From Halomonas stenophila (lineage in GTDB: Bacteria > Pseudomonadota > Gammaproteobacteria > Pseudomonadales > Halomonadaceae): a stretch of DNA of 64,000 nt. Shown in pieces: positions 6,867 to 63,393 of this stretch (position 1 is its first letter; each line of letters starts with the position of its first letter). The stretch is taken from NCBI RefSeq assembly GCF_014192275.1, contig NZ_JACHXR010000001.1, positions 744,001 through 808,000 on the forward strand, in the 5' to 3' direction. The notes under the pieces were generated by a model. The model did no database searches. It worked only from the letters and a program-made list of their open reading frames with translations, and was not told the DNA's origin. The position numbers and the translations under genes are program-made.

Positions 6867-7060
6867 GGCGACAAGGCCCGGAGTGCCGGACCATCGCGAG
6901 GGCGCTGTAAACCCTTCCCTGGGCGCTACCGACGCCCTGCGGCGCTCTCGCGTCCCGCTCCGCTTGCAGGTCCGGTGCTGGCCATCCATGGCCAGCCCGT
7001 TCGGAGCAGTGCTCCTCACTCATGGCGTAGGACCCTCGCTACGTCTTGTCCCCGGCGCTC
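6867..7060 (+). repeat. Dispersed modular repeat, copy A (intact)
   Basis: About 194 bases between yejA and yejB that align along almost their full length with copy B (18076-18239 plus 19805 onward). Shared blocks include CTGGGCGCTACCGACGCC, CGCTCCGCTTGCAGG and CATGGCGTAG, and the right end reads TTGTCCCCGGCGC. It contains two perfect small palindromes: CTGGCCAT/ATGGCCAG with a 2-base loop and GGAGCA/TGCTCC with a 1-base loop. No convincing ORF is present. This copy shows the uninterrupted sequence across the site where copy B carries the IS. Inside an operon it may act as an RNA structure. I recognise no named family. Confidence 0.85.
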
Positions 7061-18075: not shown

Positions 18076-18239
18076 GTCGACAAGCCCCGGGGTGCCGGAC
18101 CATCGAGGAGGCGCTGTGAACCCATCCCTGGGCGCTACCGACGCCCTGCGGCGCTCTCGCATCCTGCTCCGCTTGCAGGACCGGTGCTGGCCATCCATGG
18201 CCAGCCCGTTCGGAGCGGTGCTCCTCACCCATGGCGTAG
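18076..18239 (+). repeat. Dispersed modular repeat, copy B, left part (interrupted by IS)
   Basis: From GTCGACAAGCC to CATGGCGTAG this aligns nearly base for base with copy A (6867 onward), including the CTGGCCAT/ATGGCCAG palindrome. The repeat stops abruptly at 18239 where the insertion sequence begins, and its missing right part resumes at 19805. Confidence 0.9.
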
Positions 18240-18244
18240 ACATG

Positions 18245-18257
18245 ATGGATTGACCTG
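18245..18257 (+). repeat. IS left sub-terminal inverted repeat (IRL)
   Basis: 13 bases that are the exact reverse complement of 19787-19799. It lies five bases inside the left end defined by comparison with repeat copies A and C. Confidence 0.9.
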
Positions 18258-18329
18258 CCCCGCCTCAACGTCGTGGGTTACGTTGAGGTTGGGCAACAAC
18301 ACAGAGCCACTATTGAGGGAGGCAGGTCA
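18251..18329 (+). promoter_or_regulatory. Left-end hairpins of the IS before the transposase start
   Basis: Two nested perfect inverted repeats: TGACCTGCC (18251-18259) with GGCAGGTCA (18321-18329), and inside it CCTCAACGT (18263-18271) with ACGTTGAGG (18280-18288). The outer stem runs into the transposase ATG (18329), so it could mask translation initiation in transcripts reading in from outside; that role is inferred. Confidence 0.6.
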
Positions 18330-19531
18330 TGACACAGTCTAACGCAACTCATCAGGCCGTTGTGGAGCGCACTGTCGCCGAGCGGCTCAACGCCGCCGGC
18401 GATGTCCACGCCGCTTATATCGGGCTGGATGTGCACAAGGCGAGCATCTCCGTGGCGATCGCCGAGGCAGGCCGCCAGGCGCCCGAGTTCCGTGGCGAGA
18501 TCCCCAACGAGCCCAAGGCCATCGACAAGCTGATTCGCCAGCTGAGCGAGCGCTTCGCGGGGCAGCCGCTGCTGTTCAGCTACGAGGCGGGTCCCTGTGG
18601 CTATGGGGTCTATCACCAGGTCCAGGCGAGTGGCCATGACTGTGAGGTCGTTGCTCCGTCATTGATCCCTCGCCGAGCCGGCGATCGCGTCAAGACCGAC
18701 CGCCGTGATGCGCAGATGCTGGCGCGTCTGTCGCGTTCCGGTGAGCTGACGCCGGTGTGGGTGCCGACACCCGAGCAGGAGGCGATCCGTGACCTGACGC
18801 GAGCCCGGGAGGACATGAAAGCCATCGAGCTCAAGGCGCGACAGCGGCTGGGCGCCTTCCTGCTGCGACATGGCAAGGTCTATGGGGGCAAGAGCAAGTG
18901 GGTCCCGGTGCACTTCCGCTGGCTGGAGACGGTCCGCTTCGACACCCCGGTTCAGCAGCTCGTGCTGGAGGAGTACGTAGAGGCCGTGAAGGAGGCTCAA
19001 CGCCGCGTGGCCGGCCTGGAAAAGCAGATGGCAGCGGCGCTGTCGAGCTGGTCGCTGGCGCCGGTCGTCGAGGCGCTGATGGCGATGCGCGGGATCGGCC
19101 TGATCACGGCGATGACGGTGCTCGCCGAACTCGGCGACATCAGTCGCTTCGATTCGCCGCGGCAGCTGATGGCTTATCTGGGCTTGGTCCCCAGCGAGCA
19201 CTCCAGCGGCGGCAGCCGACGTCAGGGTGGCATCACCAAGACCGGCAACGGCCATGTCCGACGCGTGCTGGTGGAGGCTGCCTGGAACTATCGTTTCCCC
19301 GCACGCAAGACGCGAATCATCCAGCAACGGGCCGAGCGCACCTCGCCAACGGTCCAGGCGATGGCCTGGGAGGCCCAGAAACGCCTGTGCGGGCGTTACC
19401 GCCGGCTGGCGGCCACAGGCAAGCTAAAGCAGCAGGTCACCACCGCGGTGGCGCGAGAGCTGGCAGGTTTCCTGTGGGCCATCGCCTGTGAGGCCATGGG
19501 CAAGCCGCACGGTAGCCGGGCCACGGCATAA
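18329..19531 (+). CDS. IS110-family transposase (DEDD/Tnp_20 type)
   Basis: A 400-residue recombinase. The N-terminal DEDD (RuvC-like) domain shows Asp34 in YIGLDVHKAS, Glu86 in FSYEAGPCG and Asp124/Asp127 in KTDRRDAQMLA. A coiled-coil-forming linker at about 150-245 is followed by the Tnp_20 domain (MRGIGLITAMTVLAELGD, FDSPRQLMAYLGLVPSEHSSGGSRRQG) carrying the candidate catalytic serine. In this family the protein cuts and joins DNA guided by an element-encoded bridge/seek RNA. The frame is complete with no frameshift. AGGGAGGCAG supplies the ribosome site. Confidence 0.95.
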   Translation: MTQSNATHQAVVERTVAERLNAAGDVHAAYIGLDVHKASISVAIAEAGRQAPEFRGEIPNEPKAIDKLIRQLSERFAGQPLLFSYEAGPCGYGVYHQVQASGHDCEVVAPSLIPRRAGDRVKTDRRDAQMLARLSRSGELTPVWVPTPEQEAIRDLTRAREDMKAIELKARQRLGAFLLRHGKVYGGKSKWVPVHFRWLETVRFDTPVQQLVLEEYVEAVKEAQRRVAGLEKQMAAALSSWSLAPVVEALMAMRGIGLITAMTVLAELGDISRFDSPRQLMAYLGLVPSEHSSGGSRRQGGITKTGNGHVRRVLVEAAWNYRFPARKTRIIQQRAERTSPTVQAMAWEAQKRLCGRYRRLAATGKLKQQVTTAVARELAGFLWAIACEAMGKPHGSRATA

Positions 19532-19554
19532 TGGCCGCGTCCCAGTGTCTACGT

Positions 19555-19735
19555 GTCAGGGAGCGTCGGGCCGGTAGGAGAACCCCTGGCGGTCCTATGA
19601 GGCATCCGCCCTCCGGGGCCGGGTGACCCTCGAGCGTAGAGCGGGGTAGCTCCGCGACGAAGTGATGACAGGTCGGTACCCAACCCACGAATACCAGAGA
19701 GATCCACCGTCGCTGATAGCCCCTCGCTCCCTGAC
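19555..19735 (+). ncRNA. Candidate bridge/seek guide RNA of the IS110-family element
   Basis: The 3' non-coding region contains a perfect 11-base stem, GTCAGGGAGCG (19555-19565) with CGCTCCCTGAC (19725-19735), closing a ~181-base structured segment. Inside are an internal hairpin (CCCC-GGCGG with CCGCC-GGGG, about 19583-19617) and three guide-like stretches: GGTCCTA (19591-19597, reverse complement of target TAGGACC), GCGTAG (19634-19639, equal to the left target) and ATACCAGA (19691-19698, equal to the joined right-left element ends). Size and location fit the IS1111-group RNAs. A right-donor guide was not found. RNA boundaries are inferred. Confidence 0.55.
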
Positions 19736-19786
19736 CGGTAGGCATTGAGGACAACCGCATGCAGTAGAGACAACCGAGTCCCTTGA

Positions 19787-19799
19787 CAGGTCAATCCAT
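19787..19799 (+). repeat. IS right sub-terminal inverted repeat (IRR)
   Basis: CAGGTCAATCCAT, the exact reverse complement of IRL at 18245-18257. It is followed by ACC and the AG junction dinucleotide. Confidence 0.9.
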
Positions 19800-19804
19800 A
19801 CCAG

Positions 19805-63271: not shown

Positions 63272-63393
63272 GGGCGATCGCAGTTGGGTGGCGAGGGGCG
63301 CCGGGGACAGGTCGAAGAGGGGGTCCTACGCCATGGATGGCGTCGGTAGCGCCCAGGGAGGGGTTCACAGCGCCCCCTCGCAGACCTGTCGAC
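63272..63393 (-). repeat. Dispersed modular repeat, copy C (short form)
   Basis: On the minus strand this reads from GTCGACAGG through GGGCGCTACCGACGCC, then jumps directly to ATCCATGGCGTAGGACC and TTCGACCTGTCCCCGGCGCC to the end block CCCAACTGCGATCGCCC. Compared with copies A and B it lacks ~80 internal bases (CTGCGGCG to the second palindrome) but has the same two ends, so the family is modular. It lies between zur and the ferritin-like gene. Confidence 0.82.

Follow-up and report, generated by a model that had tools for sequence, protein, structure and literature searches.

Covariation supports a guide RNA with target and donor segments in an IS1111-like element of Halomonas stenophila

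A stretch of 64 000 nucleotides from the genome of Halomonas stenophila (hereafter, the window) very probably carries an IS110-superfamily insertion sequence of IS1111-type layout, in which the non-coding DNA 3' of the recombinase gene encodes that enzyme's guide RNA (Table 1). A preliminary description of this DNA had recognised the logic of the bridge RNAs and seekRNAs of the IS110 family, and this idea was supported by comparison with related elements, in which the guide segments co-vary with the flanking target and with the right end of the element. It is because of this covariation in relatives that the element is read as an IS110-superfamily member of IS1111 layout with a bridge RNA or seekRNA.

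Table 1. Coordinates of the element, its predicted RNA and associated features in the window
Feature	Position	Strand	Basis or remark
Insertion sequence	18240..19802	+	1563 bp between cores; one copy in the genome
Left AG core	18238..18239	+	AG common to junction and empty repeat copies; sequence
Right AG core	19803..19804	+	Junction with empty repeat copies
Left subterminal inverted repeat, 13 bp	18245..18257	+	Sequence
Right subterminal inverted repeat, 13 bp	19787..19799	+	Followed by 3-bp extension ACC; sequence
CATGAT, −10-like half of putative joined-end promoter	18241..18246	+	45 of 45 distinct junctions with TTGA[CT] upstream
TTGACA, −35-like half of putative junction promoter	19783..19788	+	Junction comparison
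Recombinase gene, 400 aa, DEDD_Tnp_IS110 and Transposase_20	18329..19531	+	ORF, domain matches
Closing stem, 5' arm	19555..19565	+	Stem in own letters in 25 of 25 relatives; arm swapping
Closing stem, 3' arm	19725..19735	+	Arm swapping among relatives
Target module, enclosing both target guides	19579..19651	+	Stem 19579-19587/19643-19651; RNAalifold, compensating changes
First (right) target guide	19590..19597	+	Pairs with target +1 to +5, core and T at −1
Second (left) target guide	19635..19639	+	Reads target −3 to −1 and core
Donor module, enclosing donor guide	19655..19712	+	Stem 19655-19659/19708-19712; RNAalifold
Candidate right-donor guide GATG	19664..19667	+	ATG matches left end, G does not
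Left-donor guide ATACCAG	19691..19697	+	Identical to right end plus AG (74 of 82 elements; seven sequences)

The recombinase contains both Pfam domains of the IS110 superfamily, DEDD_Tnp_IS110 (57.8 bits) and Transposase_20 (90.9 bits), each above its cut-off, and scored 287 bits with the NCBIfam model transpos_IS110 (cut-off 140). A protein search (E≤0.001) found one copy of the element in the genome. Its ends are backed by copies of the flanking repeat elsewhere in the genome, such as the empty copy at C10:60307-60051, in which the flank matches abut when the two AG bases are counted once. The subterminal inverted repeat is perfect over 13 bp, the left terminal extension is the 7-bp AGACATG (AG core plus 18240-18244), and 271 bp of non-coding DNA lie downstream of the recombinase gene and 89 bp upstream. 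The repeats, the AGACATG and ACC extensions, the long 3' non-coding region and the position of the top-strand guide 5' of the bottom-strand guide are all those of IS1111-type elements, for which inverted repeats of usually 11–13 bp, extensions of 7 bp on the left and 3 bp on the right and recombinases of 330–350 aa are described (PMC11187229). Because its 400 aa recombinase lies outside that length range, the element is termed IS1111-like by layout and is not a settled member. The recombinase was 25 % identical to that of IS4321/IS5075 across 332 columns, with an insert of approximately 24 aa in the C-terminal domain. In a 12-protein tree, built without IS110-type anchors of known name, it fell with ISSfr2 and the relatives of the window element in a clade apart from IS4321, IS5075 and IS1383 (support 1.0).

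The three short matches noted in the preliminary description are present, GGTCCTA at 19591 for the target, GCGTAG at 19634 for the left target and ATACCAGA at 19691 for the joined ends, as is a perfect 11-bp stem closing 181 bases from end to end. Each match had been called short by itself, and this was borne out by 3000 dinucleotide shuffles of 19532-19781, scored by the longest match that includes the core. The right-target match was reached in 338 shuffles, the left-target match in 1388 and the left-donor match in 84 (3–46 % of cases), all three together in 3, and a 5-base right-donor match in 1474. As each match is unremarkable alone, the evidence lies in covariation among relatives. The downstream region folds with −118.8 kcal/mol (z −3.2; 1 of 200 shuffles as good), and an Rfam search at a relaxed threshold returned one match (E 3.8), far under the gathering score, and none above chance.

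Relatives were drawn from genome contigs (55 loci) and from two plasmids. Whole genomes with a match numbered 13 of 275 in the family (E≤1e-60), 8 of 390 in the order, 13 of 369 in the class and 7 of 398 in the phylum (E≤1e-80), each count including the genome of the window; none of the 28 pattern matches in viral contigs encodes a relative. Ends were located by a left-end motif with a matching inverted repeat, or by a right-end motif alone. A search by inverted repeat without an end motif placed many ends wrongly in distant relatives and gave way to these motif-led searches. With 18 loci without recognised ends left out, there were 86 distinct element/flank combinations; four false ends (L035, L057, L061 and L076) were dropped, giving 82 elements, and one of these (L113) had no readable right guide, giving 81 for the right-guide core counts. 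Near-duplicates were merged, such that sample sizes of 50, 39 and 23 refer to distinct guides or guide/end combinations, while the 82 and 81 elements are not independent. Guides were taken from alignment columns fixed on the window and not by hunting for matches.

Of the 50 distinct right guides, 41, 43, 41, 39 and 23 agreed with the right flank of their own element at +1 to +5, respectively, compared with 13.1, 14.6, 16.0, 14.5 and 12.2 expected when guides were paired with the targets of other elements; at +6 (18 against 14.8) and +7 (5 against 6.9) nothing clear was seen in these 50. The 39 distinct left guides agreed with their own left flank at −1 to −3 in 38, 35 and 23 cases (30.7, 13.2 and 9.9 expected) and showed no agreement above expectation at −4 to −6. 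The right-guide sum and the left-guide sum were each reached by none of 20 000 permutations. The preliminary description had staked its reading on guides that change with their flanking targets, and here guides for both target strands do so, as in a bridge RNA. Own pairings also beat every one of 20 000 permutations within nine Halomonas-type and within 11 Burkholderiales-type elements, and because they win inside such clusters of close relatives, shared ancestry fails to explain the covariation. Separately, position −7 of the left guide agreed in 14 of 39 (10.6 expected; 303 of 20 000 permutations).

Pairwise differences among the nine Halomonas-type elements were 0.427 in the eight guide columns and 0.084 in the rest of the RNA, and the donor guide differed in 0 of 252 comparisons; the guides change while the RNA frame stays. 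The fit to the right flank was poor in L037, L048, L097, L099, L116 and L118, and in L036/L080, which carry an internal deletion, the guide fits with a 2-base shift. Six copies in one genome share a single guide and have GAGC, GGGC (two copies), AAGC (two copies) or GTGC to the right of the core, so pairing at +1 and +2 seems tolerant.

The RNA is laid out in the order closing stem, target module, donor module, and its structure proved to be conserved among homologues, with the closing stem kept by compensating changes and two conserved inner stems. The closing stem was present in all 25 relatives, in each in its own letters and with a shifting register. As it slips register in the MAFFT alignment, arm swapping was used in place of a covariance model: own arms gave a mean of 14.1 net pairs and arms swapped between elements 7.9 (0 of 300 permutations). 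In the target-module stem one pair is A-U in 15 and G-C in 9 (RNAalifold), while the donor-module stem, a nearly invariant CGACG/CGTCG, varies too little to gain covariation support. The overall RNAalifold consensus is weak (−5.76 kcal/mol; 11 pairs, five changed on both sides) because the closing stem is lost to register shifts.

In 74 of 82 elements the third guide segment is identical to the final five bases of the element followed by AG, and it tracks seven right-end sequences (ATATC, 31; ATACC, 22; ATATG, 10; ATACG, 6; ATAGG, 3; ATAAC, 1; ATACT, 1). Its two variable bases agreed in all 23 distinct guide/end combinations (10.8 and 9.2 expected), a few of which are distant elements of doubtful register (L116, L119 and the like). 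The left-donor guide of a bridge RNA, co-varying with the element end, is thereby found. No right-donor guide had been seen in the preliminary description and there is still no firm one, but a scan of alignment columns across 46 distinct RNAs (the more distant L106, L116, L118, L119, L121 and L123 and elements without a left end were dropped) yielded a weak candidate. Column 19665, which lies in the donor module 26 bases ahead of the donor guide, gave the best match to left-end base +4 (43 of 46 against 37.8 expected, z 4.9), fitting 40 of 41 elements with ACAT and three of five with ACAC (L025, L027 and L037; not L011 and L062). The surrounding segment is called a candidate only, since two of those three ACAC elements are closely related to each other. 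For left-end base +5 the same scan found no column with a convincing association (best z 3.9, with the top columns scattered). The left-end ACATNAT may be kept as a −10 box. A possible right-donor guide nearer the 5' side occurred in only 3 of 52 elements, as TGTCT at 19546 and in L071 and as CGTGTCT in L011, and was dropped.

The core dinucleotide differs between the two junctions of some relatives. At the right junction it is AG in 66 and AA in 15 of the 81 elements, and the right guide has the AA-pairing letter in all 15 of the latter; in the AG elements it has the AG-pairing letter in 58 and the AA-pairing letter, giving a G-U pair, in eight. The left junction is AG in all 62 elements with a left end, under a search that accepted no letters but A and G for the two core bases on the left and demanded A as the first core base on the right. 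The core is AG in 81 of 81 left guides and 77 of 81 donor guides. One genome has two AA insertions, and there the target is the edge of a repeat, TARCCCGAATGTTTC, found exactly at 25 places (21 TAA and 4 TAG), none of which follows an element end, and within one mismatch at 85 (reversed control, 0). As target sites in that genome are mostly TAA while left junctions are TAG, the target core stays on the right and the left junction receives the donor core. For IS621, top-strand cleavage 3' of the CT core is described, after which the incoming donor core is paired by the second target guide (PMC11208158); the split core may be this strand-exchange pattern read on the other strand.

The 11-base target of the window element, GGCGTAGGACC, occurs at 51 places in the genome (31 for the reversed control), and these coincide with the 51 exact copies of GCGTAGGACC. 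Thirty of the 51 were fetched and, by eye, share one repeat context with a longer and a shorter form. The repeat family is dispersed, palindromic and approximately 100–260 bp long, with no Rfam match in the one copy scanned. For 18 relatives the count was 0–15 copies each, and a second lineage, that of the genome with the AA insertions, is also aimed at a high-copy repeat. Insertion into REP repeats is known for ISPa11, ISPpu9, ISPpu10 and others (PMC1525189).

Several further observations concern copies and relatives. Within the window, two uninterrupted copies of GGCGTAGGACC lie in the dispersed repeat at 7024-7034 (+) and 63322-63332 (−). The right flanks of L012/L078 and L015/L016 (AGGCCTGGTAAGCGCCAGCGCACCAGGC and AGGGTGGATAAGCGCCAGCGCATCCACC) are alike and palindromic-looking, so these relatives may also target extragenic palindromes. 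L098 has a second right end 283 bases past the first, and L037 has an additional RNA motif with its own right end 568 bases further along, which looks as though partial copies had inserted beside the element. In L036/L080, L062 and L013/L072 the recombinase gene is deleted (1346 and 1131 bp) or frame-broken, and both ends and the guide RNA are kept; such elements are therefore possibly moved in trans.

These data suggest the following route of movement. Joining of the element ends would create a promoter, TTGACA-17-CATGAT, from which the recombinase and the RNA would be transcribed; joined-end promoters are known in these families (PMC11187229). TTGA[CT] was present at all 45 distinct junctions, a count that is partly built in because the choice of ends gave a bonus for TTGA, and in 3 of 63 of a control stretch; the spacing was 17 in 39, 18 in four, 19 in one and 21 in one. 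The RNA would bind the recombinase. In this genome the guide fits the dispersed palindromic repeat; its second target segment matches the three bases left of the core and the core itself, and so pairs with the bottom strand; and the third segment matches the right end and core as they stand in the joined ends of the circle. The two RNA modules would hold the target and the circle junction, with exchange taking place at the core.

For the clade of long recombinases with IS1111 layout, a broader reading seems reasonably likely. The RNA of this clade would be a full bridge RNA, pairing with the donor as well, and the cores of the two target guides could differ: with an AA target core, the first guide and the right junction carry AA, and the second guide, donor guide and left junction AG. 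On this reading the RNA would be written to suit the product of strand exchange, with one guide core kept for the incoming donor strand. The target guides would change at several times the rate of the remaining RNA, and in more than one lineage they would have come to be directed at host repeats.

Chance resemblance, with some other role for the 3' region, would fit the shuffle frequencies of the single matches but not the covariation of guide and target, the pairings within clusters or the compensating changes in the closing stem; guide covariation, overall and within clusters of close relatives, rules it out, and its probability is negligible. It is improbable that the RNA guides to the target only, as in a strict seekRNA, with the protein reading the ends via the subterminal repeats and the third segment resembling the right end for another reason. 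This would agree with the weakness of the right-donor guide and with ISEc11, for which an 82-nt RNA sufficed for movement and target matches alone are reported in the passages of PMC11187229 that deal with it, whereas a protein-read end does not predict a segment that follows the right end through seven sequences. Pairing of the RNA with both target and donor is thus the favoured reading. Less easily set aside, if still unlikely, is a system of this kind in which the copy in the window is no longer active. The single copy despite 51 exact target sites would be in keeping with inactivity, while the gene is open over 400 aa and the ends, repeats, stem and guides are intact.

The element resembles the IS1111-type seekRNA elements ISEc11, ISPa11 and ISKpn4 in its 3' non-coding region and RNA, the lengths of its subterminal repeats and terminal extensions, its guide order and its joined-end promoter, and differs from them in its longer recombinase and in a donor guide that co-varies with the right end (PMC11187229). 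With the IS110/IS621 bridge RNA it shares target and donor modules, guides that include a 2-bp core (AG here, CT on the other strand) and a DEDD recombinase; unlike there, the RNA lies 3' of the gene, the guide order is reversed, the subterminal repeats are long and the right-donor guide is only a weak candidate (PMC11208160, PMC11208158). ISSfr2 of Sinorhizobium, whose recombinase is 57 % identical and in the same clade, has the same conserved motifs around the guides in its downstream region, as judged by eye. As in the REP-inserting elements ISPa11, ISPpu9 and ISPpu10, the target is a dispersed palindromic host repeat, here of another family and host and with the RNA segments that fit the repeat identified (PMC1525189). 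Donor pairing for IS1111 elements was proposed from manual inspection in the bridge RNA paper (PMC11208160), and no further paper on donor guides of IS1111-type elements was found among open-licence papers, preprints excluded.

The class of mechanism is already known, and the informative parts are the covariation of a donor guide in an element of IS1111 layout and the split core. How IS1111-type elements recognise their own ends is left open in the seekRNA paper, including for ISEc11 (PMC11187229); for an element of this layout, the covariation speaks for an RNA donor guide and points to its bases. The split core in relatives offers a natural means of testing the IS621 strand-exchange model, and the family records the re-aiming of RNA-guided recombinases, at least twice towards high-copy host repeats.
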